Origin: Shinella yambaruensis
GTDB lineage: Bacteria > Pseudomonadota > Alphaproteobacteria > Rhizobiales > Rhizobiaceae
Reading direction: 5' to 3'
Length of the DNA stretch: 64,000 bases
Assembly: GCF_022899355.1 (NCBI RefSeq)
Contig: NZ_JALJCK010000005.1
Span: forward strand, 434,001 to 498,000
Part shown: one piece after another, positions 348-55,474 of the stretch
How positions within the stretch are numbered: the first letter of the stretch is position 1
How the letters are laid out: each line of letters begins with the position of its first letter
Position numbers and translations under genes: made by a program
The notes under the pieces: model-generated
What the model was told of the DNA's origin: nothing
Database searches by the model: none
Seen by the model: the letters and a program-made list of their open reading frames with translations, nothing else

Positions 348-385
348 GGATGAACCTCCTTGAGATCGCCGGGCGACGGGGACTG

Positions 386-3035: not shown

Positions 3036-3043
3036 GCGGTCTC

Positions 3044-5124: not shown

Positions 5125-5128
5125 GGTC

Positions 5129-5659: not shown

Positions 5660-5664
5660 GTCAA

Positions 5665-6729: not shown

Positions 6730-6734
6730 GCCGG

Positions 6735-7616: not shown

Positions 7617-7626
7617 GGCCAACTCC

Positions 7627-8655: not shown

Positions 8656-8691
8656 CGAGCCCTCCCTTTGTGCCGGTTGTGGATCAGGTGT

Positions 8692-8717
8692 TCGCGGGCG
8701 AGGCAGCCTGCCCGCGA
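8692..8717 (-). terminator. intercistronic hairpin between binding protein and permease
   Basis: TCGCGGGC (8692-8699) and GCCCGCGA (8710-8717) form a perfect 8-bp GC-rich stem with a 10-nt loop, in the gap between the binding-protein stop (8739) and the MalF-type permease start (8655). No U-run follows, so it more likely acts as an mRNA-stabilising 3' end or a leaky attenuator, as in many binding-protein operons, than as a full terminator. Confidence 0.55.
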
Positions 8718-8738
8718 CGTGGCGGAGCCGGCGCGGCC

Positions 8739-9983: not shown

Positions 9984-10069
9984 CTGCGTTCTCCTTCTGG
10001 TCGGTTCTTCTTGTTTTCGGCGTCGATCGTCCGCCGTCCCAACCGGCGCCTGACCCGATGATTAAAGGC

Positions 10070-13932: not shown

Positions 13933-13981
13933 CTTGTGTCCTTTGTCTGATCGATACGATGGCGCCTTGGCGCCCCTGTTG

Positions 13982-19533: not shown

Positions 19534-19544
19534 CGAACGTGTCC

Positions 19545-40140: not shown

Positions 40141-40185
40141 GGGGGTGTCTTTCAATCGGTTGGTCATGCAGATGGAGCGAGCGGT

Positions 40186-41193: not shown

Positions 41194-41206
41194 CGTGTCT
41201 CCTCGT

Positions 41207-42715
41207 TCAAAGGACTTCCGCGAGGAAACGCCGCAGGCGTGGGCTCTCAGGGTTGTCGAAGATCGCCTCGGGCGTGCCTGCCTCCACCACGCGCCCCTCA
41301 TCCATGAAGACGACCTGGTCGGCAACGCGGCGGGCGAAGCCCATCTCGTGCGTGACGACGACCATGGTCATGCCGCGCTTGCCGAGGTCGGCCATCAGGT
41401 TGAGCACGCCCTTGACCAGTTCCGGATCGAGTGCGCTCGTCACCTCGTCGAAGAGTATGACCTCCGGCTCCATGGCGAGCGCGCGGGCGATGGCGACGCG
41501 CTGCTGCTGGCCGCCGGAAAGCCCGCCGGGGCGATGATGCTGGCGGCCCGCAAGGCCGACATCGGCAAGCCGCGCCTTGGCGATCCGCTCCGCTTCCGCC
41601 TTCGGCAGGCCCTTGATCTTCGTCAGCGACAGCATGACGTTTTCCAGCGCCGTGTGATCCGGGAAGAGGTTGAAGTGCTGGAAGACCATGCCGACACGCC
41701 GGCGGAGCCGCTCGGGCTTCATGGCGAGGATGCTGTCGCCGTCGAGAAGGATATCACCGCTCTTCGGCTCGACCAGCCGGTTCAGGCAGCGCAGCAGGGT
41801 GGACTTGCCGGAGCCGGACGGGCCGATAACGCAGGTGACGCTACCCGGCTTGACCGAAAGGTCCACGCCCTTCAGCACGTCGAGCTCACCATAGGCCATG
41901 CCGAGGTTGCGCACGTCGAGACTGCCGCCCTTGAAAGACGCTTCGGAAGCGCGGCCGGCGCCATCGAGTTCGCTGACCTCCTCAAGCCCGCTGGTGACGG
42001 CTGCCGGGCGCTGCTTGCCGAGCCGCAGGCGGTTGTCGATCGCGTTGACGACGTGGGTAAGCGGCACGGTCACGACGAGATAGAAGACGCCGGCAAGAAG
42101 GAGCGGCGAAAGATTGCCGGTCACCACCGCCTGGTCCTGGCCGACGCGAAAGATCTCGCGCTCGGAGGCGAGCAAGCCGAGGAAGTAGACGAGACTCGAA
42201 TCCTTCACGTTGCCGATGAACTGGTTGACGAGGGCCGGCAGCACGCGCCGCACGCCCTGCGGCACGACGATGAGCCGCATGCCTTGCCCGTAGCTCATCG
42301 ACAGCGCCCGGCAGGCCTCCATCTGGCCCCGGTCGACGCTCTGGATCCCCGAGCGAAAGATCTCGCCGATATAGGCGCCGGCGATCAGGCTGAGCGCCAG
42401 GATGCCAAGCGGATAGGGCGAGGGGCCGAACAGCTCGCGGCCGATGCGCGCAAAACCCTGCCCGATCAACAGGATGGTAACGATAGCCGGCAGACCGCGA
42501 AAGACATCCGTGTAGATTCGGGCGGGGATGCGCAGCCACGGCGAGCGGGAAATGCCCATGATGGCGAGCACCATGCCGATGATGATGCCGAGCACCGTCG
42601 AGGCCGCAGCAAGGATCAGCGTGTTCTTGAGACCGACCGTGATCATGGTCGGCAGCACTTCGGCCATCGCGTTCCAGTCGAGGAAGCTGCGGCGCAGGTT
42701 TTCAAGCCAGTTCAT
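41207..42715 (-). CDS. amino-acid ABC transporter: permease fused to ATPase
   Basis: One 502-residue chain joins a HisM/GlnP-type permease (~1-235, with [20 protein letters not shown], the coupling loop [25 protein letters not shown] and about five helices) to a HisP/GlnQ-type ATPase (~260-502, with [51 protein letters not shown] and [16 protein letters not shown]). Walker B reads DEV rather than DEP. Natural permease-ATPase fusions of polar amino-acid importers are known but uncommon. The ATG at 42715 was chosen over upstream in-frame TTG codons. It works with the binding protein encoded 56 nt upstream. Confidence 0.94.
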
Positions 42716-42771
42716 CAACAAGGCCCTTCAGGGAAAGGCCACCCCGGCCGCAGCCGGGGCGGCAGCCGGCG

Positions 42772-43608
42772 TCACGTCTTGGGGAGGTATTCAGCCGGCA
42801 TCGGCGTGCCGGGGAACCACTTCTCGTGGATCTTCTTCCAGGTTCCGTCCTGCATGGCGTCATGCAGCGCCTTGTTCAGCGCCTCGCGCAGCTTGTCGTT
42901 GCCCTTGCGCACGACGAAGCCGGCCGGTGCGTCGAAGCTCGGGATGTTGACCGCGATCGTCAACTCGGGATAGCGGCCCGAATAGTCCTTCGCCGCCTCG
43001 TAATCGAGGAAATGCGCGTCCACGGTGCCGTTGTTGAGCGCGGCGACGGCCGAATTGTTGTCGGGGAACTTGACGAGATCGGCGCCCGCGAAATTCTTCT
43101 CGGCGTAAATCTCCTGCAGCGTGCCCTGCACGACGCCGAGACGCTTGCCCTGCAGGCTGGCGGCGTCCTTGATCGCGGCGTCCGGCGTCAGGATCGATAG
43201 ATAGCCTGCGAGATATCCGTCGGTGAAATCGACCGTCTCCTTGCGCTTGTCCGTCGTGCCGATCGCGGCCGCCGCGACGTCGAAGCGGCTGTTGGCGACC
43301 GACGGCATCAGCGCGGCGAATTCCTGGCCGGTGAAGATCACCTGTTCCTTCTTGAAGCCGATACGCTCGGCGACGTTGAGGAAGAGCTCTATGTCGAAGC
43401 CGGTGAAGTTGCCGTCGGAGGTGGTGAAGGCATAGGGCTTGGCATCGCCCATCGTGCCAACGCTGATGACGGCAGGATCGATCAGGCCAAGCGGATTGTC
43501 GGCGGCGGCAGCCGGCATCGCGGCGCCGGCCAGGACGCCGAGGGCGAGCGCGACGGCGGCGGCGCGCATTCGGGAAAGGGGGGAAGTGATGGCTTTGGAA
43601 AATCGCAT
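42772..43608 (-). CDS. amino-acid ABC transporter substrate-binding protein (family 3)
   Basis: The 278-residue periplasmic protein has the signal [22 protein letters not shown], with cleavage before ADNPLG. The family 3 pattern is seen in [42 protein letters not shown] (ligand-contact Arg/Asp region), [16 protein letters not shown] and the tail [17 protein letters not shown]. The ATG at 43608 follows AGAGGAGA. As first gene after the double GAGACCGGTCTC operator it should be tightly repressed without inducer. The ligand is likely a polar amino acid or amino-acid conjugate. Confidence 0.94.
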
Positions 43609-43732
43609 TGGTCTCGTCTCCTCTGGTGGTGGTGTCTGCAATGACTTCAAGGCGCACGGGTCCCACCCGGGCAGCGGCAACCCGCTGTCCGGCCCATGCC
43701 ATCTGCATGCCGGGATTCTGCTCTTCTCATTT

Positions 43733-43769
43733 TGAGACCGGTCTCATATTAAAAGAGACCGGTCTCTTT
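43733..43769. promoter_or_regulatory. tandem LacI operators GAGACCGGTCTC
   Basis: Two perfect palindromes lie 21 bp apart centre to centre: TGAGACCGGTCTCA (43733-43746) and AAAGAGACCGGTCTCTTT (43752-43769). Two helical turns place both repressors on the same DNA face. They lie between the divergent binding-protein gene (43608) and LacI gene (43834), and the TAATAT between them is a possible -10 for the minus operon. Confidence 0.88.
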
Positions 43770-43833
43770 GACGTTTCGCAATTGTTATCTTCGCATTTGC
43801 CAGTCGTCAATATCTCTTGTAAGGCTAGCGCCC

Positions 43834-44904
43834 ATGGACCAGAGCCCGCCCCGTTCCCCCTCCGTCACGGTTGCCGACGTCGCGCGCAAGGCAGGCGTCT
43901 CGAAGGCCACCGCCGCGCGCGTTCTGGGTGGCTACGGCACCGTGAGCGACCGGGTGCGCGATGCCGTGACCGCCGCCGCGCGCGCCCTTGACTACCAGCC
44001 GAACGAGCTCGCCCGCAGCATGACGACGGGCCGCTCCGGCACGATCGGCGTCGTGGTGGGCGACATCGAGAACCCGTTCTTCAGCCTCGCCATGCGGGGG
44101 ATCACCGATGTCGCCCGGCAGGCCGGCTTCACCGTCGTCCTCATCAATTCCGGCGAGGACGCCGAGGCGGAGAAGGCCGCGATCCGCACCCTGCTTGCCA
44201 AGCGGGTGGACGGCCTGATCGTCTCGCCGGCCAAGGAGAGCGATGTCGGCCATCTCAGGGAAGCCGCCCGCGCCGGCCGGCCGCTCGTCCTGCTCGACCG
44301 CGGCAGCGAAATGCTCGACGTCGACATGGTGATCGCCGACGACCGGCATGCCGCCGAGGGCATCACGCGCCGGCTCATCGCGCTCGGCCACCGGCGCATC
44401 GCCTATCTGACAGCCTGCGACACGCCGGACCACCGCTTTCGCACGCCGTCCGACATCAATACCGGCTCGGTGCGGCGGCGCATCCAGGGCTTTCTCGGCG
44501 TCTGTCGTGAGGCGGGCCTCGACGGAATGGAAGACCGGGTGCATGTTGGCGCCGTCACGCCGGAGCATACGCATCGCATCGTCACGGGGATGCTCCAGTC
44601 CTCGCAGCGCCCGACGGCGATCATCGCGTCGGACAGCGTGATCGGGCTCGAAGTGTTCAAGGTGTGCCGCGCGCTCGGCCTCAGCATACCGGACGACCTG
44701 TCGCTGGTGTCGTTCCACGATGCGGACTGGACGTCCGTCACCACACCACCCGTCACGGTGGTGCGCCAGCCCGTCTACCGTCTCGGCGAGACGGCGGCGA
44801 AGCTGCTGGTCGAGCGCTTGAACGGCAACCACGCGGAGGCGAGCCGCGTCGTCCTGCAGACGAAAGTCATCGAGCGCGCCTCCGTTGCCGAGGCGCCCGT
44901 CTAG
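43834..44904 (+). CDS. LacI family transcriptional regulator (GAGACCGGTCTC type)
   Basis: The 356-residue LacI-type repressor has the HTH TVADVARKAGVSKATAARVL (about residues 13-32), the hinge ELARSMTTGRSGTIGVVVGD and a sensor domain with MVIADDRHAAEGITRRLIALGHRRIAYL and AIIASDSVIGLEVFKV. The ATG at 43834 follows AAGG. It is similar over its N-terminal half to the LacI protein encoded at 53374-54462. The double operator just upstream implies autoregulation and control of the divergent transporter/oxidoreductase operon (39016-43608). Its TAG stop is part of the repeat at 44904. Confidence 0.95.
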   Translation: MDQSPPRSPSVTVADVARKAGVSKATAARVLGGYGTVSDRVRDAVTAAARALDYQPNELARSMTTGRSGTIGVVVGDIENPFFSLAMRGITDVARQAGFTVVLINSGEDAEAEKAAIRTLLAKRVDGLIVSPAKESDVGHLREAARAGRPLVLLDRGSEMLDVDMVIADDRHAAEGITRRLIALGHRRIAYLTACDTPDHRFRTPSDINTGSVRRRIQGFLGVCREAGLDGMEDRVHVGAVTPEHTHRIVTGMLQSSQRPTAIIASDSVIGLEVFKVCRALGLSIPDDLSLVSFHDADWTSVTTPPVTVVRQPVYRLGETAAKLLVERLNGNHAEASRVVLQTKVIERASVAEAPV

Positions 44905-44964
44905 AGCATTTCCGGTACGGCATTATCCGATGCCGAAGCGACTTCGCTTCGGCTGGAAATGCTC
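44904..44964. repeat. palindromic intergenic repeat, type A (copy 1)
   Basis: The outer arms GAGCATTTCC (44904-44913) and GGAAATGCTC (44955-44964) flank an inner hairpin GCCGAAGCG-actt-CGCTTCGGC (44932-44953). The same architecture and near-identical sequence recur at 60275-60335. The element touches the TAG stop of the LacI gene and can fold on either strand, so it could also end transcription. Similar short palindromes are widespread between genes in rhizobial genomes. Confidence 0.85.
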
Positions 44965-45100
44965 CAGGCATTCCGCGCGGGCCAAGTACGCCCGCCAAGC
45001 CACAGGACACCCAGCACCGCGGCCTGGGCAATGGGCGCAGCAGCGGATTCCTGTCTCTTCGGCGCTGCGGCGGCGGGCTTCCGTTCCTTCCCTTCGCTTC

Positions 45101-45940
45101 TCAAGCCGGGCCGAGGGCCTTGCGCATGGCCTCGACGCATTGCCTTAGCGGCGGGGTGGGATCGACATTGTATTTCCAGTTGGTCAGCTCGACCGTCAGC
45201 GAGCCCTCGTAATTCTGGCTGCGGAGATAGGCGACCAGCGTGTCGAGATCGACGATGCCCTCGCCCCACGCCAGATGGCTGCCGCCGGCATCCGCGTCGG
45301 TGAAATGCACATGCGCGACGCGGCCTGCAAGGTGGGTGAAATAATCCTCAGGCCTTTCTCGCGTCATCACGGCGCCCGCGACATCGTAGACCGCATGGAG
45401 CACGGGACTTGCGAGCATGTCCATCAGTGCGCGGATCTCCTTTGCCGAGCGAACGATGTTGGCGAAGGAATCCGGCAGCGCCTCCATCCAGAGGTCAAGG
45501 CCGAGTTTCTGCGCACGATCGCACAGGATGCCCATGGAATCGACGCAGCGCTCCAGCGCTTCCGCGGCCGGTTCGTCGCGATAGCCGCCGCCGGCCGTCA
45601 CCAGCAGGGCGGGCGCGCCGCATTCGACGGCGAATTCCATCGATTCCAGGAAATAGCGCACCGAACGGTCGCGCAGCTCCGGCTCCCTCGCCGAGATGTT
45701 GATGGGATAGATGCACTGTTCCGGCGTGAAGGCGACGATGTCGAGGCCCATTCCCCGCACGGTCCGCCCCAGCGCCCGCGCATCGGCCAGCGTCTTGTCG
45801 CCGATGTAGAAATGCGGGGCAGCCGCCCACAGCTCGATGCGCGAGACCCCGGCCTCGCGCACATCGGCCAGAAACCGATCCAGCGTATGCCGCACATAGT
45901 GGAAGTTCATCACGCTGATATTGCGTTCGTCGAGTGCCAT
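45101..45940 (-). CDS. frlC: sugar phosphate isomerase/epimerase family protein (FrlC-like)
   Basis: The 279-residue TIM-barrel protein is of the xylose-isomerase-like AP-endonuclease family 2 fold. Candidate metal ligands follow the usual Glu-Asp-His-Glu order: LWMEALPDSF, AVYDVAGAVM, HVHFTDADAGG and SLTVELTNWKYN. Length and layout match fructoselysine 3-epimerase FrlC (psicoselysine to fructoselysine), and the context (FrlB-like deglycase, FrlD-like kinase, amino-acid transporters) supports that, but other 3-epimerases of this fold are possible. A perfect GAGAACGTTCTC operator lies 50 bp upstream, inside the end of the preceding gene. Confidence 0.75.
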   Translation of the reverse strand: MALDERNISVMNFHYVRHTLDRFLADVREAGVSRIELWAAAPHFYIGDKTLADARALGRTVRGMGLDIVAFTPEQCIYPINISAREPELRDRSVRYFLESMEFAVECGAPALLVTAGGGYRDEPAAEALERCVDSMGILCDRAQKLGLDLWMEALPDSFANIVRSAKEIRALMDMLASPVLHAVYDVAGAVMTRERPEDYFTHLAGRVAHVHFTDADAGGSHLAWGEGIVDLDTLVAYLRSQNYEGSLTVELTNWKYNVDPTPPLRQCVEAMRKALGPA

Positions 45941-45981
45941 CGCATGTCCTCCGCCGGTGGTCGCCGAAGCGACGATTTCAT

Positions 45982-47508
45982 TTATTTCATGAGAACGTTC
46001 TCATTTCGGCATGCCAAATCGGGAGATGGCCAACGAAGGCCGAATTCGGTGACGGTTTCGTCGATGAAGCAGGCGATCTGGGCCGCCGTCTCCTCCGAAG
46101 TCCAACCGAGATGCGGGGCGGCGAACCTTGCGGCGGCCTCTGCATGGCGCAGGCCGAGATCCGGCTCCCACCCGACGGAAAGACGGCGGCGCAGGATATC
46201 CGACAGCGTGCGGGCCTGCTCGTTCAGCACCGCATGGGCGACGGAGGCTTGCGTGACGCGGTCCATGTCCTCGACGGGCGGCGATGCCGTGTCGAGCGGC
46301 CGCGGCGGGCCGGACGGCTTCAGCCGGCGGGCGACCGCACGCCTCAGCCGCCGCCCCGCGTCGCGATGGGTCATCAGCAGCCCGCCGGTGAAGGTGAAAA
46401 GGTTCGGCAGGCCCTCATCGGTCAGGTCGTGCTCGCGGACGGCGGGCGCAGGCCCCTTGCCGTCCCGGGCGAGGCTGCGCGGCCGCACGCCCGCCCAGGA
46501 ATAGAGCACGTCCTCGCGCCGCAGCCCGAAACCGGGAAACAATCGCCCCAGCTGGTCGAGGATGGCGGCGATCTCCGCCTCGCTCGCCCGGAAGCCTTCG
46601 GGCCGGCCGTCCGAGGCGGAATCCCACGGGCCGGCATAGTGAAGCGCGCCCCACGGGATCAGGTAGAAGGGCGCGCCCGCCGCGGTGACGGTCTCGAAGC
46701 CGATGCCACGAAGACTTTCCGGCAGGCGCACGACGATGTTCGTACCCTTCTCGCCGGTGTTCCTGCGGATATGCGGCGCGCCGGCAAGCGCGGTGATCTC
46801 GTCAACCCAGACGCCCGCGCAGTTGACTACCGCACGCGCCAGCACATCGCGCGATCCCCCCGCCGCCGTCAGCGTGACCCGCCACAGGTCGCCATCACGC
46901 GCAAGCGCCGTCACCGCGGTGTGGTTCAGCGCCTCCATGCCGATCGCCCGCGCCTTCATGACCGTGTCGACCACGATGCGCTCCGGCCAGCAATACTGAT
47001 ATTCCGTGAAGGTCATCGCGCCGTGAATGCCGTCGAGCCCTGCCATACCTTGCAGCGCCGGATGCGCCCGCGCCTCCCCGGCGGAAAGGATCTGCAGGTC
47101 CAGCGGGACACGACCGCCGTCGCTCGCCGCCATCAGGCGGAAGGCGAGCCGCGCCTTCCAGCGGGGAATGGCGTTTTCCCGCGTCAGCGGAACGACGAAG
47201 GTGACGGGTTTCACCCGCTCGGGCGCGGTCCGCACGAATTCCGCCCGCCCCCGCATCGCCCGGCGCATGAGGCTGAAACATTCGATTGCGCTGCGCGGGC
47301 GGGCGAGAAAGGCCGCGATCGATCCGCTGGCAGCGGACAGATAACCGAGCCCGCAATGCTGAAGGCGCGAGGTCCTGCTGGAGGTGCCGGAGCCATAATC
47401 GTCACGCTCGACGAGCAGCGTGCCATAGCCCGCCGCCGCCAGATGCTGCCCTGCCGCCGCGGCGATGATGCCGCCGCCGACAACCACGGTGTCGTAAGTC
47501 TGGGTCAC
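45982..47508 (-). CDS. GlpD-like FAD-dependent oxidoreductase with variant Rossmann motif
   Basis: The ~508-residue flavoprotein resembles aerobic glycerol-3-phosphate dehydrogenases: YDTVVVGGGIIAAAAGQHLA at the N-terminus, GSGTSSRTSRLQHCGLGYL (GlpD-like RSTK/HGG region, altered), VVNCAGVWVDEITALAG, KGTNIVVRLP, and a C-terminal helical domain after GGLLMTHRDAGRRLR. The third Gly of the dinucleotide motif is Ala (GGGIIA). GTG 47508 is the chosen start; the frame remains open to a TTG at 47574, but that would put the operator at 47560 inside the gene. The last codons (ENVLMK) are formed by the operator at 45990. It is unlikely to be a true GlpD; a sugar-amine or polyol oxidase is possible. Confidence 0.85.
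   Translation of the reverse strand: MTQTYDTVVVGGGIIAAAAGQHLAAAGYGTLLVERDDYGSGTSSRTSRLQHCGLGYLSAASGSIAAFLARPRSAIECFSLMRRAMRGRAEFVRTAPERVKPVTFVVPLTRENAIPRWKARLAFRLMAASDGGRVPLDLQILSAGEARAHPALQGMAGLDGIHGAMTFTEYQYCWPERIVVDTVMKARAIGMEALNHTAVTALARDGDLWRVTLTAAGGSRDVLARAVVNCAGVWVDEITALAGAPHIRRNTGEKGTNIVVRLPESLRGIGFETVTAAGAPFYLIPWGALHYAGPWDSASDGRPEGFRASEAEIAAILDQLGRLFPGFGLRREDVLYSWAGVRPRSLARDGKGPAPAVREHDLTDEGLPNLFTFTGGLLMTHRDAGRRLRRAVARRLKPSGPPRPLDTASPPVEDMDRVTQASVAHAVLNEQARTLSDILRRRLSVGWEPDLGLRHAEAAARFAAPHLGWTSEETAAQIACFIDETVTEFGLRWPSPDLACRNENVLMK
45990..46003. promoter_or_regulatory. LacI operator TGAGAACGTTCTCA embedded in a coding end
   Basis: This perfect 14-bp palindrome lies in the last codons of the GlpD-like gene and 50 bp upstream of the FrlC-like start. 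It is one of four GAGAACGTTC-type sites of the regulon of the LacI at 53374. Confidence 0.85.
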
Positions 47509-47559
47509 GGTCCATCCCCGCCCTGCCGCCCCATGAGGCGATGCGCTCAACGTTTGATG

Positions 47560-47573
47560 TGAGAACGTTCGCA
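47560..47573. promoter_or_regulatory. LacI operator copy TGAGAACGTTCGCA
   Basis: It has one mismatch from the perfect palindrome. It lies between the GlpD-like gene (start 47508, minus) and the FrlB-like gene (start 47660, plus) and could repress both directions. Confidence 0.78.
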
Positions 47574-47618
47574 AAATTCTGGCGACGGTGTCAAGTCCGC
47601 TTGACGCGCGCGGAAAGA

Positions 47619-47636
47619 TTATAATACGTATTATAA
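47619..47636. promoter_or_regulatory. GntR-type operator, 18-bp palindrome
   Basis: TTATAATACGTATTATAA is a perfect 18-bp palindrome, 24 bp before the deglycase start. Its AT-rich sequence stands out from the GC-rich surroundings, and it has the GTAT/ATAC-type core seen in HutC/FrlR-type GntR operators. The GntR gene is the next gene of the same operon, so autoregulation is likely. TATAAT-like elements inside the palindrome may also be the -10. Confidence 0.78.
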
Positions 47637-47659
47637 CGTCATATCAGAAAGGTCCATTC

Positions 47660-48661
47660 ATGCCCTTCCCCTCCGCCTTCGACGCCGGCGTCGTCGCCGC
47701 GCTCTCCGCCCTCGATGCGAAATCGGTAAAACATGTATTCTTCATCGCCTGCGGCGGCTCGCTGTCGATCATGCATCCGGCCAAGTTCCTCCTCGACCAG
47801 CACTCGCCGCTGCCGTCGGATGTCTACAACGCCGCCGAATTCGTCGCCCGCGCGCCGCGGTCGCTGGACGATAAATCGCTGGTCGTCCTTTGCTCGATGA
47901 CGGGCACCACGAAGGAAACCACCGCCGCGGCCGAATTCGCCCGCTCCAGGGGCGCGACGACCATCGGCCTGACGGTCGAGCCCGCCTCCCCGCTCGGCAA
48001 GGCGGTCGACCATGTCGTCGGCTTCGAGGCGCCCTATACGACCGGTGTGCCGATCGATGCGAAGAACAGCAACTATTCGCGGATCTACCAGATCGTCATG
48101 GGTCTCGTTGCCCTCACCGGCGGCGAGGACCTGACCGAGGCGCTGATCGAAAGCCTTTTCGCCCTGCAGCCGGCCATCGACCGCGCGCAGGCCGCCTTCG
48201 CGCCGATGTTCGAGGACTATGCGCCGCGCTTCGCCAAGGAAGACGTGGTCTATACGGTCGCGAGCGGCGCGAGCTACGGCGCGGCCTATTCCTTCGCCAT
48301 CTGCGTGCTCATGGAGATGCAGTGGATCAACAGCCAGGCGATCCATGCCAACGAGTTCTTCCACGGCCCCTTCGAGGTGCTCGACAAGGACCGCGCCTTC
48401 ATCCTCATGAAGGGCCTCGACAGCACGCGGCCGCTGGAGGAGCGCGCCGACGCATTCCTGCACCGGTTCGGCGCGGCGGAGAACATCCTCGTTCTCGATG
48501 CCGAAAAGCTCGACCTCTCCGGCATCGCCCCCCAGTTCCGCGGCAATGTCGTGCCGCTGATCTTCTTCGACACGCTCTGGCGTTTCGCCTATAAGATCGC
48601 CGACCTGCGCAAGCACGAGATGCTCGAGGCACGGCGCTACATGAAGAAGATCGCCTACTGA
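47660..48661 (+). CDS. frlB: SIS-domain deglycase, FrlB-like (fructoselysine-6-phosphate deglycase family)
   Basis: The 333-residue protein has two SIS domains: residues ~20-150, with FFIACGGSLSIMHPAKFLL and LCSMTGTTKETTAAAEFAR, and ~195-320, with TVASGASYGAAYSFAICVLMEM. In HANEFFHGPFEV the His (H235) lies 16 residues after Glu219, matching the spacing of the catalytic Glu/His pair I recall for FraB and FrlB. These enzymes split 6-phospho-fructosyl-amino acids into glucose-6-phosphate and the amino acid. It lacks the glutaminase domain of GlmS, so it is not glucosamine synthase. The ATG follows AGAAAGG. It leads an operon with the GntR and cyclodeaminase-family genes. Confidence 0.85.
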   Translation: MPFPSAFDAGVVAALSALDAKSVKHVFFIACGGSLSIMHPAKFLLDQHSPLPSDVYNAAEFVARAPRSLDDKSLVVLCSMTGTTKETTAAAEFARSRGATTIGLTVEPASPLGKAVDHVVGFEAPYTTGVPIDAKNSNYSRIYQIVMGLVALTGGEDLTEALIESLFALQPAIDRAQAAFAPMFEDYAPRFAKEDVVYTVASGASYGAAYSFAICVLMEMQWINSQAIHANEFFHGPFEVLDKDRAFILMKGLDSTRPLEERADAFLHRFGAAENILVLDAEKLDLSGIAPQFRGNVVPLIFFDTLWRFAYKIADLRKHEMLEARRYMKKIAY

Positions 48662-48679
48662 CCGGGGCTGGAAGGGCGG

Positions 48680-49390
48680 ATGGACGACCAAGCAAATCTC
48701 TTGCCGCTCTATGAACAGGTCCGGCGCTCGATCCTGGCCGGCATCGAGTCCGGCCGGTTCGCCGAAGGCAGCTTCCTGCCCGCCGAACCGGAACTGATGG
48801 CACTCTACGGCGTCAGCCGGATCACGCTGCGGCGCGCGATCGGCGAGCTTTGCGCCGGTGGCCGCCTGCAAAGGCAACAGGGGCGCGGCACCGTGATCAT
48901 GCCGGGCAAGGTGCGCCAGACGCTCGTCTCGCTGTCGGGCTTTTCCGAAACCATGGACGGTCTCGGCCGAAAGGCCGGTCATCGCATCCTCGCCCGCGAC
49001 GACAATCCCGACGCGCCGGCCATCCGCGAGCGCCTCGAGGCCGGGGCGCTGATCCGCTTCGACCGGCTGCTGGAGGACGACGGCCGGCCGATGACGCTCG
49101 AAACGCTCTGGTTCGACGGCTCACGTTTTCCCGAGGTGATCGCGCCGGTCGCCGCCGGCGGCTCCTTTTTCGCCGCGCTGCGCGACAGGGCGGGCATCGT
49201 GCCGGCCCATGCGGAGCGGCAGATCGATGTCGGCCTCGCCTCGGCCGCCGAGCGCACCATCCTGGCCGTGACCGCCGCCCAGCCGGTCTACCGGATCGAA
49301 AAGATCGTCACCGACGCCGAAGGGCGCCCGCTCGCCCTGTCGCAGCTCGTCACCCCAAGCCATCTGGTCACCTACACGATCAAGACCTGA
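48680..49390 (+). CDS. GntR family transcriptional regulator (HutC/FrlR type)
   Basis: The 236-residue regulator has an N-terminal winged HTH (YEQVRRSILAGIESGRFAEG, then LPAEPELMALYGVSRITLRRAI and the wing LQRQQGRGTVI) and a C-terminal UTRA effector domain (~90-236, with DRLLEDDGRPMTLETLW and QPVYRIEKIVTDAEGRPLALSQ). HutC-type regulators sense small metabolites, often sugar phosphates. It follows the deglycase gene by 18 nt, and the palindrome at 47619 is its probable site. It is analogous in position and type to E. coli FrlR. Confidence 0.94.
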   Translation: MDDQANLLPLYEQVRRSILAGIESGRFAEGSFLPAEPELMALYGVSRITLRRAIGELCAGGRLQRQQGRGTVIMPGKVRQTLVSLSGFSETMDGLGRKAGHRILARDDNPDAPAIRERLEAGALIRFDRLLEDDGRPMTLETLWFDGSRFPEVIAPVAAGGSFFAALRDRAGIVPAHAERQIDVGLASAAERTILAVTAAQPVYRIEKIVTDAEGRPLALSQLVTPSHLVTYTIKT

Positions 49391-49400
49391 AAGGTTCGCC

Positions 49401-50339
49401 ATGCACGTTTTCGATGCGCCCGCCGTTCACGCGGCGCTCCCGTGGACTTTTCTGATCGAGGCCTTGCGCAAGGCGCATCTCGGGCCGATGCCCGCCTCCG
49501 ACGTCGTGGTGCAGTCCGATCCCATGGGCGGCGAAGCGCAGTTCGTCACCCTGCCCGGCTGGGCGCCCGGCGGCCCGATCGTCGTGAAGATGGTCGGCGT
49601 CTTTCCGCAGAACGCGGCCCTCCAGCCGCCGCAACCCGCTGTCCAGGGGCTGGTGGCGCTGTTCGACGGCACGACCGGCGGGCCGCTCCTTGCGGCGGAC
49701 GGCGCGGCGATGACGGCACGCAAGACCGCCGCCGATTCCGCCCTCGGCGCGGCCATCCTCGCGCGGGAAGACGTGGAGGACCTGCTGATCGTCGGTGCCG
49801 GCGCGCTCGCCCCGCATTTCGCCGAGGCGCATCTGGCGGCGCGGCCCTCGCTGCGCCGGGTCACGATCTGGAACCGCACCGCGCCCCGGGCCGCGGCGGT
49901 GGCCGCGCACCTTCGCGAAAAGGGCATCGACGCTACGGTCAGCGAAGACCTCGACGGCTCGGTCGCCCGCGCCGACGTGGTGTCCTGCGTCACCATGTCG
50001 GACAGGGCGCTGGTCAAGGGCGCGCGCCTGCGGCCGGGCGCCCATCTCGATCTCGTCGGTGCCTATCTGCCCACCCTCCGCGAAGCCGACGACGCGGCGC
50101 TCACCCGCGGCACGATCTTCGTCGACAGCCGCAACAACATGGCGGGCGGCGGAGATCTCTCGCAGGCCGTCGCATCCGGCGCGATCACCTGGGATGCCGT
50201 GAAGGCCGACCTCTTCGAGCTCGTCCAGGGCAAAAGGGAAGGCCGCACCGGCGCCGATCAGATCACCGTGTTCAAGAACAACGGCGGCGCGCATCTCGAC
50301 CTCTTCACCGCCGCCGCACTGTCGCAGACGCTCGGCTAG
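49401..50339 (+). CDS. ornithine cyclodeaminase / mu-crystallin family protein
   Basis: The 312-residue NAD(P)-binding protein has the family segments GGEAQFVTLPGWAPGGPIVVKMVG, QGLVALFDGTTGGPLLAADGAAMTARKTAADSALGA, the Rossmann motif LLIVGAGALAPHFAEAHLAAR, GAHLDLVGAY and FKNNGGAHLDL. Members deaminate or reduce imino acids, ornithine, lysine, alanine or opine-like compounds. It is the third gene of the deglycase operon (10 nt after the GntR gene), so it may process the amino acid released by deglycation, or reduce or open an imine intermediate. Confidence 0.92.
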   Translation: MHVFDAPAVHAALPWTFLIEALRKAHLGPMPASDVVVQSDPMGGEAQFVTLPGWAPGGPIVVKMVGVFPQNAALQPPQPAVQGLVALFDGTTGGPLLAADGAAMTARKTAADSALGAAILAREDVEDLLIVGAGALAPHFAEAHLAARPSLRRVTIWNRTAPRAAAVAAHLREKGIDATVSEDLDGSVARADVVSCVTMSDRALVKGARLRPGAHLDLVGAYLPTLREADDAALTRGTIFVDSRNNMAGGGDLSQAVASGAITWDAVKADLFELVQGKREGRTGADQITVFKNNGGAHLDLFTAAALSQTLG

Positions 50340-50431
50340 AGCAATACCAGCAAAAGGGCGAAGCGGTTTTGCGTCCGGAATTGCGTCAGGGCATTTCCGC
50401 GATTCGGAGAAAAGCGGAAATGCCCTGACGC
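50337..50431. repeat. intergenic repeat type B with a strong terminator hairpin
   Basis: The first part (tagagcaatacc...ggttttgcg) resembles the start of the element at 52209-52267. The second part is a perfect 18-bp stem, GCGTCAGGGCATTTCCGC (50383-50400) with GCGGAAATGCCCTGACGC (50414-50431) and a 13-nt loop, lying exactly between the convergent cyclodeaminase-family and ATPase genes. It should stop transcription from both sides. The cyclodeaminase-family TAG stop is part of the element. Confidence 0.8.
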
Positions 50432-50432
50432 G

Positions 50433-51218
50433 TCACGCGTCCGCCAGAACACGCGCCAGAAAAGCCCGCGTACGGTCGTGCTGCGGGCGCGTCAGCACGT
50501 CGACCGGCCGCCCCTGCTCCACGATCACCCCGCCATCCATGAAGATCAGGTGGTCGGCGACATCGCGCGCAAAGCCCATTTCATGCGTGACGACGACCAT
50601 GGTCATGCCGTCGTCGGCAAGCTTGCGCATCACGGCAAGGACCTCGCCGACGAGTTCCGGGTCGAGGGCCGAGGTCGGCTCGTCGAACAGCATGACGTCG
50701 GGCTTCATCGCCAGCGAGCGTGCGATGGCCGCGCGCTGCTGCTGGCCGCCGGAAAGCTGGGCCGGATAATAGTGCGCCCGCTCCTTCATGCCGACGCGCT
50801 CCAGAAGCACCATCGCCTCCTCGATCGCCGTGGCGCGCGGCACGCGCTTGACGAGGATCGGCGCCTCGATGACGTTTTCGAGCGCGGTCTTGTGCGGGAA
50901 GAGATGGAAACCCTGGAACACCATGCCCATGCGCTGGCGCTGGCGGGAGAGCTCGTTGAAGCTCATCTCGTAGAGCTTGTCGCCCTTCCAGCGCACGCCG
51001 ACGGGTTCGCCATGCAGGAAGATTGCGCCGCCGGTGGGCTTTTCGAGATAGTTGAGGCACCGCAGGAACGTGCTCTTGCCAGAGCCCGAGGGCCCGACGA
51101 TGCAGGTCACGTCGCCGCGCATCACCGCGACATCGATGCCGCGCAGCACCTCGTGCGCGCCAAAGCTCTTGCGCAGGCGCTCGACCTTCAGCAGCGGCTC
51201 GCCGTTCGTCTGGCTCAT
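50433..51218 (-). CDS. amino-acid ABC transporter ATPase (HisP/GlnQ type)
   Basis: The 261-residue ATPase has Walker [20 protein letters not shown], an insertion typical of histidine/opine transporters ([18 protein letters not shown]), Q-loop [17 protein letters not shown], signature [17 protein letters not shown], Walker [17 protein letters not shown] and H-loop [14 protein letters not shown]. The ATG at 51218 overlaps the permease stop (ATGA). It is the last gene of the three-gene importer 50433-53112. Confidence 0.95.
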
Positions 51219-52141
51219 CACACGGCCTCCTGCTGGCGCGCGAACAGGCGGAAGGGGAAGATCCCGCCCGCTTTCGTCGCGCCGGCCCGGTGCTCGGATT
51301 TCAATCGGTGCTCGACGGCATGTTCGACGACCGTCAGGATCGTGGTGAGAACGAGATACCAGATGGTTGCGACGAGCAGCAGCGGCACCGTCTGGTAGGT
51401 GCGCGCATAGACCATCTGCGCCGAATAGAGCAGATCGGGCAATGCCAGCACGGAGACGAGCGAGGTGAATTTCAGCATCGAGATCGTGTCGTTGCCGATG
51501 GGCGGAATGACGATGCGCAGCGCCTGCGGCAAGACGATGCGACGAAGCATCTGGGCGCGCGTCATGCCGAGCGTGGCGGCTGCTTCCGTCTGGCCGACAT
51601 TCACGGCCTGGATGCCGGCGCGGATCATTTCGGCGGCATAGGCGCTTTCGGTGAAGGCAAGGCCCATGATGGCCGCGCTGAAGGGGGTGATGAGCTGGTT
51701 GGTATTCCAGGAGAGGAGCTTCGGCCCGCCGAACGGGATGCCGATCGATATTTCTGGCAGGAGAAGCGCCAGATTGTACCAGAAGATCATCTGCACCAGC
51801 GGCGGCACACCGCGGAAGAACCAGATCCAGCCCCAGCTGACGGACTGGAAGACGCGGCTGGCCGACAGGCGCATGATGGCCAGCACGACACCGATTGCAA
51901 GGCCGAGCACCATGGCGAGGAATGTCAGCAGCAGCGTCATGCCGAGACCCGACAGGATGGCCCGGTTGAACATGTATTCGGCAACGACGGCCCACTGCAT
52001 GTTCTTGTTGGTGACGAGCACCTGCAGGAAGACGACCGCAAGGACGGCAAGAACCACGCCGCCGATCCAGTGGCCTATCTTCGGCACCGCGATGGGCTTG
52101 AGATCGTGGATCGAGGGGCGGTGTGGCGGTTCTTCAGACAT
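51218..52141 (-). CDS. amino-acid ABC transporter permease
   Basis: The 307-residue permease has a ~25-residue cytoplasmic N-terminus ([20 protein letters not shown]), a first helix [20 protein letters not shown], and a HisMQ-type core with [36 protein letters not shown] and the coupling segment [27 protein letters not shown]. The extra N-terminal helix is usual for longer polar amino-acid permeases of proteobacteria. A single permease gene implies a homodimer. It is coupled to the ATPase gene by a 4-bp overlap. Confidence 0.95.
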
Positions 52142-52208
52142 CGTTGTTCCTTGTGCCGGTCGCGGACCTCGCCCCGGCCCGAGGCAAGCCCCGGGCCGGG
52201 AAAGCGGC

Positions 52209-52267
52209 GCTGGAGCAATCCAGCAAGCGTGCGCAGTTTTGGCGTTTCGAAGAAAAGCGCAAACGCC
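52209..52267. repeat. intergenic repeat type B (second copy, divergent)
   Basis: The element (tggagcaatccagcaag...) starts with the hairpin CTGGA-gcaa-TCCAG (52210-52223) and ends with GGCGTTT (52241-52247) paired to AAACGCC (52261-52267), the last touching the TAG stop of the binding-protein gene. The opening is clearly related to the element at 50337. It sits between binding-protein and permease genes, where it could shape relative expression. Confidence 0.65.
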
Positions 52268-53112
52268 TAGAGGTCCGCCGGATTTTCTTCCGTGATCAGA
52301 AGCGCCTTGCTCAGCATGCCGGAATCGTTCAGGCCCCACTTGGCCATGATCTTCTCATAGGTACCGTCGTCGATCATCGACTGGATCGCATCCGTCATGA
52401 CCTGGCCGAGCGGATCGCCCTTGCGCACGCCGATGCAGCTGTTGACGGGCGACAGAACCAGTTCCGACACCTTCAGGTCGCCGGTCTGCTTGGCCATGTA
52501 GGCAAGCTTGACGGAGCCGGCCACGGTCGCCTCGGCGCGCTGCGAGCGCACGGCCAGTTCCGCCTGGGCCTGCGTGCCGTGCGTCTGCATGATCACCGGC
52601 TTGTCCTTGCATTCGTTGGCGTTCAGCTTCTCCAAGAGGCCGAGGTCCCAGGAGCCGTTCAGCACGGCGACCGTCAGGCCGCAGGCGTCGGAGGCCGTCT
52701 TGATGTCGAGCTTGCTGTCCGCCGGATAGGCGAACGAGGTGCCGATCTTGCGCTGGGAGACGAAATCCAGCGTTTTCAGGCGTTCCGCGGTGGTGCCGAA
52801 GGACGAGAAGCCCGCGTCGAAACGCTTCGACTGGAGGCCCGGAATGATGGCGTCGAAACTGGTGCCCTCGAAGGTGAAGGTCACGCCGAGGCGATCTTCC
52901 ATCTCCTTGGCGATATCGACGCTCCAGCCCTTGAGCTGACCATCGGAATCGAGGAATTCGTCGGGCGCCCAGTCGTTGAAGACCGCGGCCTTGATACCGT
53001 TGTCCTTGTATTCCTGCGGCAGGGCATCGTGCAGGGCGGGAATGACATCGGCAAGCGCCGGCATTGCCAGCGCCGCGCTCAGGGCACATCCGGCGAGAAT
53101 GGATTTGAACAT
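52267..53112 (-). CDS. amino-acid ABC transporter substrate-binding protein (family 3)
   Basis: The 281-residue periplasmic protein has the signal MFKSILAGCALSAALAMPALA, with cleavage before DVIPALH. Family 3 features include LKGWSVDIAKEMEDRLGVTF, FDAGFSSFGTTAERLKTLDFV, AELAVRSQRAEATVAG and the tail DDGTYEKIMAKWGL. Cysteines in SDACGLTVAV and ANECKDKP may form a disulfide. It is the first gene of the importer; the operator at 53183-53196 lies 71 bp upstream. In this locus it is the best candidate receptor for a glycated amino acid. Confidence 0.94.
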   Translation of the reverse strand: MFKSILAGCALSAALAMPALADVIPALHDALPQEYKDNGIKAAVFNDWAPDEFLDSDGQLKGWSVDIAKEMEDRLGVTFTFEGTSFDAIIPGLQSKRFDAGFSSFGTTAERLKTLDFVSQRKIGTSFAYPADSKLDIKTASDACGLTVAVLNGSWDLGLLEKLNANECKDKPVIMQTHGTQAQAELAVRSQRAEATVAGSVKLAYMAKQTGDLKVSELVLSPVNSCIGVRKGDPLGQVMTDAIQSMIDDGTYEKIMAKWGLNDSGMLSKALLITEENPADL

Positions 53113-53182
53113 GACAACCTCCTTGTCGTGGCGAACCGGCGGGTCCGCGATTGCGTTCTCTGGTTCCCCTTGCAGATAATGG

Positions 53183-53196
53183 CGAGAACGTTCTCA
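53183..53196. promoter_or_regulatory. LacI operator CGAGAACGTTCTCA
   Basis: The core GAGAACGTTCTC is a perfect palindrome, upstream of the binding-protein gene (minus) and the LacI gene at 53374 (plus). It is the third site of the regulon and probably autoregulatory. The rest of the 261-nt gap shows no further gene. Confidence 0.86.
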
Positions 53197-53373
53197 CATA
53201 TGAGACACGGAGATGGCCCATCCGTCAAGCGCCTCCCGCACCGATCGAGGGCGTAAAGACGTTGAAAACGGCCATCGATCTGGTAACACCTGAAAAAGCC
53301 TGTCGTCTTCTACCGGAATACGCATGATCGGATTCTCAGTCGGCAGGCCCGAAATGTGAGAGGGAAGTGCCAC

Positions 53374-54462
53374 GTGACCCCGAAAAGCAAGGCAACCATC
53401 GCGGATGTAGCGCGCGCAGCAGGCGTTTCCACGGCAACGGCGGGGCGCGTGCTCGGCGGCTATGGCTATACCAGCGAGGAGAAGAAGGAGCACGTTCTCA
53501 AGGCCGCCCAGGACCTCGGCTACCGGCCCAACGCGCTCGCCCGCAGCCTCATCACGGGCAAGACCCGCACGCTCGGCGTGGTGGCCGGCGATATCCAGAA
53601 TCCGTTCTATGCTTCTGTCCTGCGCGGCATTTCCAACGTCGCCGAGGCCAACGGATTCGGTCTTTTGATCACCAATAGCGACGAGGCCCGGGCAAAGGAG
53701 GTCCACTCCGTCGAGCTTCTCGCCCAGAAGCAGGTGGACGGCCTGATCGTTACCCCCAGCGACACGCGCAAGGCGCGGCACCTGCACAATCTCAAGGCCA
53801 TGGGCATGCCCTTGGTGCTGATCGACCGCGCCGTCGCCGGCCTGATGGTCGACCGGGTGGCGACCGACAACATCGCCGCCGCCGAACAGGCCGTCCGCCA
53901 CCTCATCGCGGCCGGACACCGCCGGATCGGCATCGTGGCGGAGCTCGTCGACGAGGAGAGCGGCAAGCTGGACGCATTCCTGGCGCGCGCCGTGGCGGGC
54001 GATCCGATCGAGAGCGAAACGCTCTATCCGAGCTGGCAGCGCCTTCTCGGCTATATCCGGGCGCATCGGATCGAGGGCCTGCCCGTGGATCCGCGCCTGA
54101 CCCTTCGGGCGGGAAGCTATTCCGCCCTTGCCGCGCAGGCGGTCGTGTCCCGCTTGATGACGACACCCGGCCAGCCGACGGCGCTGTTCACCACGGACGG
54201 CACCATGTCCGAAGGCGCCATGCGGGCTCTCACCGAGTTGAAGCTCTCGATCCCGCAGGATCTCTCGCTCATCTGCTTCGACGATCTCGACTGGATGAGC
54301 TTCCACCGCCCCGGCATCACGACCGTGGCGCAGCCGCGCCTTGCCATGGGCGAGGCCGCCGCGCGAATGCTGCTGGAGCGCATTCGCGGCGAAGCCTTTC
54401 CGCCGCGCACGGTACTGATGCCCGCCGAACTGGTCGAGCGCGGTTCCGTCGCCCGGCTCTGA
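53374..54462 (+). CDS. LacI family transcriptional regulator (GAGAACGTTCTC type)
   Basis: The 362-residue LacI-type regulator has the HTH TIADVARAAGVSTATAGRVL near the N-terminus, the hinge ALARSLITGKTRTLGVVAGD, and a sensor domain with VDRVATDNIAAAEQAVRHLIAAGHRRIGIV and ALFTTDGTMSEGAMRAL. The GTG at 53374 has AGAGGGAA upstream; an earlier in-frame GTG at 53356 is less likely. Four operator copies in 8.6 kb (45990, 47560, 53183, 54547) place the FrlC-like, GlpD-like, transporter and kinase genes under it. Recognition-helix residues differ from its neighbour at 43834 in few positions, matching the one-base operator change. Confidence 0.95.
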   Translation: MTPKSKATIADVARAAGVSTATAGRVLGGYGYTSEEKKEHVLKAAQDLGYRPNALARSLITGKTRTLGVVAGDIQNPFYASVLRGISNVAEANGFGLLITNSDEARAKEVHSVELLAQKQVDGLIVTPSDTRKARHLHNLKAMGMPLVLIDRAVAGLMVDRVATDNIAAAEQAVRHLIAAGHRRIGIVAELVDEESGKLDAFLARAVAGDPIESETLYPSWQRLLGYIRAHRIEGLPVDPRLTLRAGSYSALAAQAVVSRLMTTPGQPTALFTTDGTMSEGAMRALTELKLSIPQDLSLICFDDLDWMSFHRPGITTVAQPRLAMGEAAARMLLERIRGEAFPPRTVLMPAELVERGSVARL

Positions 54463-54546
54463 TCCCCCCGCAAAACGGTCCGGGGCGCCGTTTCAGCCGC
54501 ACCGGCCGGAGGAAACCATTTGCCATTCCGGGGGCGGTCCTATAAA

Positions 54547-54560
54547 TGAGAACGTTCTCA
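54547..54560. promoter_or_regulatory. LacI operator TGAGAACGTTCTCA before the kinase gene
   Basis: This perfect 14-bp palindrome lies 27 bp upstream of the PfkB-type kinase start, identical to the site at 45990-46003. Confidence 0.88.
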
Positions 54561-54586
54561 GTTCCTTATCAGGAGACGCCTGCCCG

Positions 54587-55474
54587 ATGTCGCGCCGCAC
54601 CAGAATCCTCGCCTTCGGAGACAATGTGGTCGATTGCTACCGCGACCAGAACCTGATGTTCCCCGGCGGGAACTGCGTCAACCATGCCGTCTTCGCGCGC
54701 CGCGCCGGCGCCGAGACGGCTTATGCGGGCGCAGTCTGCGACGACGACGCCGGGCGGCTGATCCGCCAGGCGCTGATCGAGGAAGGCGTCGATGTTTCCT
54801 CGCTGCGGATGGAACCGGGACAGACGGCCTATTGCGTGATCGAGACGCAGGAGGGCGAGCGGGTGTTCATCGGCGCCAATCTCGGCGTGTCGATCATCGC
54901 GCCTTTGCGGGCGGACCTCGCGCGGCTTTCGGATTTCGATGCCGTCCATACCGGCCGGTCGAGCCATGTCGATGCCTGGCTGCCGCGCTTTGCGGCGGCG
55001 ACGAAGGTTTCCTACGATCTTGCAACCGTCCACGACTCCGAGCGCATCGCCCAGGTCGCGCCCCATTGCTTCCTCCTCGCCTTTTCCGCGGGAGGCACGC
55101 GCCATGAGGAGGCCCTTGCGCTGGCGCTGGCCGCGCGAGCGGCCGGTGCGCACTGGAGCCTCGTCACCAGGGGTATCGACGGAGCCGTCCTTGCCGGCGA
55201 AGCCGGTGTGTTCGAGGCGCCGGCCCAACCGGTCGACGCCATCGACACGCTCGGCGCCGGCGACACCTATATCGCCAACGTCCTCGTCGGCCTGCTCGGC
55301 AAGCGGGATTCCGAAACGATCCTGAAGGATGCGGCAGAAGCGGCGGCCCGGACCTGCCTGATACGCGGCGCCTTCGGCCATGCCGCCACCATGAGCGTCG
55401 ACCTCTCGAACATGATGAGCCTCGAGGAGATCTACCGCACCACCCGTCCCGCAAAAGTGCCCGAAGACGCCTGA
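54587..55474 (+). CDS. frlD: PfkB family carbohydrate kinase (FrlD-like)
   Basis: The 295-residue ribokinase-fold enzyme has the N-terminal substrate region FPGGNCVNHAVFARRAGAETAY, with the GGN motif used by fructosamine and fructose kinases, then IGANLGVSIIAP, and the C-terminal anion hole and catalytic base DTLGAGDTYIANVLVGLL. FrlD phosphorylates fructoselysine at C6 to make the substrate of the deglycase, and the PGGNxxNxAVFA wording is characteristic of FrlD. The FrlB-like gene 6 kb away and a shared operator family support this role; it is ~35 residues longer than E. coli FrlD. Another fructosamine or ketose could be the substrate. Confidence 0.82.
   Translation: MSRRTRILAFGDNVVDCYRDQNLMFPGGNCVNHAVFARRAGAETAYAGAVCDDDAGRLIRQALIEEGVDVSSLRMEPGQTAYCVIETQEGERVFIGANLGVSIIAPLRADLARLSDFDAVHTGRSSHVDAWLPRFAAATKVSYDLATVHDSERIAQVAPHCFLLAFSAGGTRHEEALALALAARAAGAHWSLVTRGIDGAVLAGEAGVFEAPAQPVDAIDTLGAGDTYIANVLVGLLGKRDSETILKDAAEAAARTCLIRGAFGHAATMSVDLSNMMSLEEIYRTTRPAKVPEDA

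Follow-up and report, generated by a model that had tools for sequence, protein, structure and literature searches.

In Agrobacterium, socR and socABCD encode the catabolism of the Amadori compound deoxyfructosyl-glutamine, and such compounds are found in decaying plant matter and among the crown-gall opines (PMC4231840). Santhopine has also been linked to the soc genes (PMC8262997), and the title of a work cited by PMC4992315 describes such genes as widely dispersed in the Rhizobiaceae. The frlBONMD-frlP genes of Bacillus subtilis, with FrlR, have been reported to serve for alpha-glycated amino acids; their importer FrlONM draws its energy from the sugar-importer ATPases FrlP/MsmX, and the accessible text names FrlR and CodY as regulators and mentions no LacI regulator, soc genes, flavoprotein or ornithine cyclodeaminase (OCD)-family gene (PMC12632257). 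The same source states that FrlR of Escherichia coli, encoded by the frlABCD-frlR system, is proposed to sense fructoselysine-6P. Here we describe a locus on a 64,000-nucleotide stretch of Shinella yambaruensis DNA (hereafter the window; the whole genome is 6.87 Mb in 34 contigs), in which a complete soc operon adjoins genes of frl type. As an Amadori locus it is real and conserved, and it has operators of its own; positions 39016 to 55474 very probably form a single region for the catabolism of Amadori compounds that comprises two routes, one of soc and one of frl type.

The window resembles B. subtilis frl in its kind of deglycase (structure 3eua), its FrlD kinase, its import by an ATP-binding cassette (ABC) system and its GntR-type FrlR, and differs from it in having a family-3 importer. 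Homologues of E. coli FrlB, FrlC, FrlD and FrlR are present at 24%, 27%, 34% and 29% identity, respectively; E. coli uses a single transporter, FrlA, whereas the window has several divergent gene rows, two regulators and enzyme scores below the fructoselysine cut-offs. The Ti plasmids pTiBo542 and pTi1D1609 likewise carry a SIS gene and an annotated 'fructoselysine 6-kinase' adjoining a LacI regulator (34% and 38.5% for pTiBo542). Those loci differ in having a polyamine-type ABC system and aldo/keto and SDR reductases, and the stretches compared have no annotated GntR or OCD-family gene. The oxidative soc route is known; what the present locus adds is a probable phosphorylating route next to soc in rhizobia. 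Among the open-licence literature matches listed we found no report of such a route beside soc, and no paper describing an alphaproteobacterial kinase/deglycase locus; an up-regulated Agrobacterium cluster including an frlB gene is mentioned in one sentence of PMC6629968.

The soc operon and the frl-type enzymes

The complete socRABCD set occupies positions 39016-44904, with socR divergent from socABCD, and all five proteins are orthologous to those of pAtC58 (82-94% identity over nearly the full length, to the genes at 4153-10044, in identical order). The minus strand carries socD (39016-40140; FAD-binding oxidoreductase, 85.6% identity), socC (40186-41193; Gfo/Idh/MocA oxidoreductase, 88%), socB (41207-42715; permease/ATPase fusion, 94%) and socA (42772-43608; periplasmic binding protein, 83%), and the plus strand carries the LacI-family gene socR (43834-44904; 82%). 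SocD oxidises deoxyfructosyl amino acids. Two SocR-type operators are predicted from motif matches at 43733-43767, TGAGACCGGTCTCA at 43733 and AGAGACCGGTCTCT at 43754. The annotation of the 12 kb of pAtC58 examined includes neither a SIS nor a PfkB gene, whereas the soc operon of the window adjoins a kinase and a deglycase of frl type. A preliminary description, made from the sequence alone, had placed the start of a fructosamine locus at 44904. The open reading frames that it named are indeed open and its gene positions stand, but the start has to be moved: 44904 is the last base of the soc operon, which that description had left out.

The same description had called three enzymes FrlB-, FrlC- and FrlD-like, and the best NCBIfam matches agree. 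They are a SIS deglycase (47660-48661, plus strand), an epimerase (45101-45940, minus strand; 27% to E. coli FrlC) and a PfkB kinase (54587-55474, plus strand; 34% to E. coli FrlD and 38.5% to the pTiBo542 kinase), the last of which carries a GAGD motif. Although FrlB, FrlC and FrlD were in each case the top family, the scores (98.1, 126.6 and 150.6 bits) are far below the curated cut-offs of 430, 305 and 247 bits. Because of this, epsilon-fructoselysine specificity should not be assumed for the window enzymes, even though by sequence the SIS protein and the kinase are of the FrlB and FrlD types. The E, D, H and E columns of FrlC, which are metal-binding or catalytic residues, are all kept in the window epimerase and four relatives aligned with E. 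coli FrlC.

The closest solved structure to the SIS protein was 3eua, which we take to be B. subtilis FrlB, with 283 bits versus at most 44 bits for GlmS, and judging by its sequence the window protein is nearer to 3eua than to E. coli FrlB. A GlmS or amino-sugar identity was rejected on the low scores. The Protein Data Bank entry for 3eua gives it as a putative fructose-aminoacid-6-phosphate deglycase. Residues Glu219 and His235, pointed out in the preliminary description, are kept in 6/6 deglycase-type proteins that we chose for alignment, E. coli FrlB among them. The partner His has a catalytic role in SIS deglycases, and Glu219 was equated with the catalytic Glu of FraB-type enzymes from an alignment made without FraB. 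The E214A variant of FraB is catalytically inactive (PMC12755824).

Two trees of SIS proteins were made (loci and genomes bear our L and G numbers). Seven SIS loci of the own genome (L001, L002, L004-L008) were offered to the first, and none yielded a row. From the second, two very long rows (Kp_GfrE_like and Rsp_SRDI_phosphosugar) were taken out and two own-genome rows were added; its root was placed on GlmS by our choice, and L002 was treated as GlmS on the basis of its start and length. In this tree the GlmS branch is very long and attaches next to E. coli FrlB, away from the window family, which has a support of 73/49. The trees appear to place the window family near the 3eua group, with its sister group not settled. 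Membership of a GlmS-like clade had been named beforehand as something that would speak against the deglycase; the scores argue against such membership, and the tree, being rooted on GlmS, is no test by itself.

Linkage and co-occurrence of the two gene sets

The window deglycase was used to scan 84,980 species genomes, which gave 126 candidates; 90 were confirmed and the best 80 kept. These 80 loci, with flanks of up to 10 kb, are a non-random sample picked by similarity to the window deglycase, and going by the record titles all are alphaproteobacterial. At a coverage of at least 60% and an identity floor that we set for each family, the kinase was present in 76 loci, the LacI2 regulator in 70, the OCD-family gene in 59, the GntR gene in 44, the binding protein SBP1 in 40, the epimerase in 22, SocA and SocD in 21 each and the flavoprotein in 19. 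The linkage of kinase and deglycase (76/80) is more than chance. In addition, the OCD-family gene is found in 39/40 SBP1-bearing loci, 17 of the 19 flavoprotein-bearing loci also have the epimerase, and SocA or SocD is present in 26/80.

Fourteen loci have SocA but no SBP1. In twelve of these, LacI2-SocB-SocA-kinase run along one strand and deglycase-SocD along the opposite one; unlike in pAtC58, soc and frl-type genes are thus interleaved in 12/80 relatives of the window, which we call hybrid soc/frl loci. The two gene sets also go together at the level of genomes. Among 199 genomes of the window's family (deglycase at E ≤1e-90, SocA at E ≤1e-80), 15 have the deglycase, 14 have SocA and 8 have both, where about 1 is expected by chance (one-sided Fisher p 3e-7). 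Counted by genus, 13 have the deglycase and 12 have SocA, with 7 of 109 shared (one-sided Fisher p 3.5e-5), and kinship beyond the genus remains in this value. The genome searches scored part of the first-look candidates (in the own genome 7/41, 10/18 and 12/44), so that carriers are possibly undercounted. In 4 of the 8 genomes (G002, G009, G086 and G092) deglycase and SocA are on different contigs.

Gene content, soc orthology, linkage and operator positions are direct observations. An Amadori substrate for the frl-type half is likely: this reading is supported by the enzyme families, by the kinase-deglycase linkage and above all by the adjoining soc operon, the hybrid loci and the co-occurrence with SocA. 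On the same grounds the earlier proposal of a fructosamine locus is upheld, with a substrate that we still infer.

A second frl-type set was found beside window-type loci in Shinella PSBB067 (L111, 1-8358), L016 (about 100-7238), L060 (17336-19619) and L064 (about 13800-20000). It consists of a SIS gene whose product is about 28-32% identical to that of the window and a LacI gene, with an epimerase in L016, L064 and Shinella PSBB067, and differs in having sugar-type ABC genes (Shinella PSBB067 and L016). In Shinella PSBB067 a SocD gene (83%) lies between the two frl-type sets. The SIS proteins of L016, L060 and L064 group in the trees with a Klebsiella protein, which is presumably GfrF-like.

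Operators and control of the deglycase

Two regulators are encoded in the frl-type half. LacI2 (53374-54462, plus strand; reading frame open from 53356) is 40% identical to SocR. The GntR gene (48680-49390, plus strand) encodes a protein with GntR and UTRA domains that is 29% identical to E. coli FrlR; like an FrlR gene it adjoins the deglycase, and it has a predicted operator of its own. The predicted LacI2-type operator pattern, TGAGAACGTTCTCA, has two exact copies, one at 45990-46003, inside the 3' end of the flavoprotein gene and 50 bp upstream of the epimerase, and one at 54547-54560, immediately 3' of the likely -10 of the kinase. This agrees with the earlier statement that kinase and epimerase share one LacI operator family. 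Copies with one mismatch are located at 47560-47573, between the flavoprotein and deglycase genes, where the site covers the likely -10 of the promoter that faces the flavoprotein gene, and at 53183-53196, between SBP1 and LacI2. The -35/-10 assignments are consensus matches only (8/12 positions for deglycase, flavoprotein and kinase and 9/12 for SBP1). Allowing one mismatch, the whole genome contains four LacI2 sites, all within the locus, and none of the reversed control pattern.

The operators recur across the loci. With two mismatches allowed, a LacI2-type site at most 300 bp upstream was found for SBP1 in 40/40 loci, for the kinase in 71/74, the deglycase in 74/79, the flavoprotein in 18/19, LacI2 itself in 44/72 and SocA in 15/21; these counts omit genes less than 300 bp from a locus end, and in divergent loci one site is scored for kinase and deglycase alike. 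Twelve of the 15 SocA promoter sites are of the LacI2 type and three (L011, L015 and L060) are of the SocR type, two mismatches away. Of the 22 loci that have the epimerase, 17 likewise have a site upstream of it. Twelve shuffled palindromes (11 distinct), searched in 20 of the 80 loci, gave 0-5 matches each versus 54 for the real operator.

A GntR-type palindrome, TTATAATACGTATTATAA, covers the likely -10 of the deglycase at 47619-47636. Within 200 bp of the deglycase and with up to 5/18 mismatches, this palindrome is present in 31 of the 44 loci that have the GntR gene and in 0/36 without it. Elsewhere it was found upstream of the kinase in 8/77 cases, in a region often shared with the deglycase, and upstream of the OCD-family gene and LacI2 in 0/59 and 1/72, respectively. 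The arrangement of the promoter elements differs accordingly. In the loci with both the GntR gene and a LacI site (n=39), this site is about 100 bp upstream of the deglycase. A deglycase-directed TTGAC is located on the downstream side of the site in 34 of them and directly 5' of it in 1; an opposite-direction TTGAC flanks it in 38. In GntR-less loci (n=35), the corresponding numbers are 1, 21 and 35. The loci are interrelated, and Fisher values for these promoter counts therefore overstate certainty. Because the placement of TTGAC differs between GntR-bearing and GntR-less loci, the deglycase promoter of loci with GntR appears to be detached from the LacI site.

The preliminary description had assigned the deglycase to GntR, apart from LacI. 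The palindrome at 47619 fits that assignment, and the site at 47560 contradicts a deglycase region free of LacI operators. Its further suggestion of a separately controlled intermediate gains support from the promoter geometry, in which the kinase, importer and flavoprotein/epimerase promoters have the LacI sites and the likely deglycase -10 has the GntR site, rather than from the absence of a LacI site; this geometry supports separate control of deglycase and kinase as a prediction from sequence. Most likely LacI2 senses the substrate and GntR the intermediate, effectors that we infer, as we do every reaction and substrate of the frl-type route. Mutants in fraB are reported to be poisoned by the phosphorylated fructosamine (PMC12755824).

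Importer, redox enzymes and alternative readings

The family-3 importer named in the preliminary description is confirmed in all its parts, each on the minus strand: an ABC ATPase of amino-acid type (50433-51218), a permease (about 51218-52141, its start set by homologue length) and the solute-binding protein SBP1 (52267-53112). ABC import had been counted as a novelty for fructosamine use, and this point falls: for Amadori compounds there are already examples of such import in soc, in FrlONM (PMC12632257) and in Intestinimonas, where it was modelled (PMC4697335). SBP1 was rejected as a SocA orthologue at 27% identity. It keeps the column of HisJ R77; the D161 column is Gly or Ala in the four SBP1 proteins aligned, and SocA and HisJ keep Asp161. 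In HisJ, Arg77 is a carboxylate contact, and Asp161 likewise has a role. The loss of Asp161 could fit a ligand with a blocked or tertiary amine. Given this loss and the 27% identity, the SBP1 ligand need not be that of SocA. Over the loci, three importer types occur: SBP1-ABC, SocAB and TRAP, and in one locus (L091, 13006-15828) TRAP genes lie alongside an SBP1-type ABC system.

The gene upstream of the epimerase (45982-47508, minus strand) encodes a GlpD-like FAD dehydrogenase, referred to here as the flavoprotein. The earlier label GlpD-like is correct as to sequence and fold (model pLDDT 76.6), but GlpD itself, i.e. glycerol-3-phosphate dehydrogenase, was rejected. The phosphate ligands of GlpD are R54, R317 and K354; in all six family members aligned the R54 column is G and the K354 column is L, and the R317 column is Arg in 5/6 (Gln in L019). 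The flavoprotein is uncommon, being present in 12/199 family genomes (E ≤1e-40); the legume symbiont Sinorhizobium medicae WSM419 has it together with deglycase and kinase. ARAGORN reports a tRNA-Ala of 97 bases inside its gene (47072-47168), which is probably spurious. Distant homologues occur directly before an OCD-family gene that is 41% identical to that of the window (L106), in a hydroxyproline-betaine cluster with a proC-like gene alongside (L107), near a proC-like gene and genes for NADH:flavin oxidoreductase and electron-transfer flavoprotein (L108), and, at 31-35% identity, near amino-acid ABC genes and NADH:flavin oxidoreductase in a recurrent gene set that is perhaps amine-catabolic (L136-L139). 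L129 is a window-type locus. Probes of L109, L110, L130-L135 and L140 gave no amine or imino-acid gene near the homologue, except for a weak OCD-family match (27%) in L135. Overall, these contexts weakly favour amine or imino-acid redox chemistry.

The OCD/mu-crystallin family protein (49401-50339, plus strand) has its nearest relatives in the pyrroline/piperideine-2-carboxylate reductases (301.8 bits versus a cut-off of 322), and its closest structure is 7rbp. The motif GGDCPGKTE of an own-genome homologue (L097), whose Asp we take to be the position of OCD Asp228, reads GAYLPTLRE in the window protein; the earlier assignment is thus right as to the family, and ornithine cyclodeaminase itself was rejected for want of this Asp. 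In OCD, Asp228 interacts with the leaving amino group (PMC3840593). Together, the OCD-family protein and the flavoprotein may be imine/amine redox enzymes, and their genes should not be named after ornithine cyclodeaminase and glycerol-phosphate dehydrogenase.

We propose the following scheme. In the first route, known in Agrobacterium, SocA/SocB would import deoxyfructosyl amino acids for oxidation by SocD. In the second, a deoxyfructosyl amino acid would be taken up by the SBP1 system, phosphorylated at O6 of the sugar by the PfkB kinase and split by the SIS deglycase into glucose 6-phosphate and the amino acid, with the FrlC-like epimerase supplying C3 epimers to this route. LacI2 would repress the importer, the kinase and the flavoprotein/epimerase genes, and the FrlR-like GntR protein would keep the deglycase operon repressed as long as the 6-phospho intermediate has not accumulated. 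The flavoprotein, as an amine/imino-acid dehydrogenase, and the OCD-family enzyme, as an imine reductase, would both act on the amino-acid half. A more far-reaching joint reading, an intermediate-buffering Amadori catabolon with re-wired control and a flavoprotein/OCD branch, is on the whole unlikely. According to it, with the gain of GntR (or before its loss) the deglycase promoter would have left the LacI operator and passed to a regulator that senses the toxic 6-phospho intermediate, and an unreported flavoprotein/OCD branch would oxidise and re-reduce the amino-acid half, so that Amadori compounds made from imino or D-amino acids could also enter the pathway.

Several observations weigh against a two-route Amadori region. 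None of the three window enzymes reaches its FrlB, FrlC or FrlD equivalog cut-off, and a clade uniting the window SIS family with 3eua lacks support (p-AU 0.063). SBP1, besides its distance from SocA and its altered 161 column, gives general amino-acid binders as best Foldseek matches of its model (pLDDT 90). SBP1 and SocA are both lacking in 26/80 loci. Three such loci have TRAP genes, by Pfam in L040 (6040-7404) and L068 (11000-12088) and by protein reading in L042 (4612-7538), and for this reason the importer type does not fix the ligand. Neither SocA nor SocD was found within the flanks of up to 10 kb in 54/80 loci. Two of the four kinase-less loci, L030 and L038, end near the deglycase gene; in the other two, L024 and L081, the available DNA shows no kinase of the window's family. 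The assemblies are drafts, with the G086 deglycase at a contig end, so that location on different contigs is no proof of distance. Finally, a LacI2 site (47560) does lie in the deglycase intergenic region.

The frl-type half could act on another ketosamine or amino-sugar conjugate, for instance of the tagatosyl, psicosyl or glucosamine type, next to soc in a general opine or rhizosphere-nutrient island; catabolic genes often cluster on such replicons. The epimerase at 27% to FrlC and an SBP1 pocket unlike that of SocA would suit this idea, which we nevertheless consider very unlikely in view of the 12 hybrid loci, with SocA/SocB in the kinase gene row and SocD in the deglycase row, the co-occurrence of SocA and deglycase across genomes, and the far lower scores of amino-sugar deaminases and GlmS. 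Undivided control is a somewhat better candidate, though a doubtful one: LacI2 would govern all promoters, the deglycase via the 47560 site, and GntR would only regulate itself. A LacI2-type site upstream of the deglycase in 74/79 loci is what one would then expect, but not a deglycase-directed TTGAC downstream of that site in 34/39 loci with GntR versus 1/35 without, nor one just 5' of it in 1/39 versus 21/35.

For the flavoprotein, a role on the sugar half is comparable in standing, being rather improbable. GlpD turns a secondary alcohol into a ketone, and a dehydrogenase of this kind might oxidise C2 of a mannopine-like N-glycityl amino acid and so give the ketosamine, the job of MocC, after which the epimerase would correct C3. 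The epimerase is indeed present in 17/19 flavoprotein loci, an unphosphorylated polyol would fit the lost R54 and K354 columns, and a mocC mutant cannot turn mannopine into deoxyfructosyl-glutamine (PMC6341043). Against this stand the amine and imino-acid settings of the distant homologues (L106, L107, L108 and L136-L139); mannopine genes were looked for only within the families scanned. If the two-route Amadori reading is true, a single region that holds both routes and in which importers can replace each other would account for the way in which plant-associated bacteria divide Amadori nutrients among themselves, and the regulator pair would offer a clean test of direct sensing of a toxic phosphorylated intermediate.

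Two further arrangements were seen among the SIS-kinase loci. In Allorhizobium ampelinum S4 (L092, 8995-14876), SIS and kinase genes are followed by hydantoinase/oxoprolinase genes, which would suit an Amadori compound of the pyroglutamate type. An Enterobacter plasmid (L104, 3185-6764) has a compact frl-like cassette, flanked by transposase genes, in which a GntR regulator, an ABC substrate-binding protein, a SIS protein and a PfkB kinase are encoded one after another.

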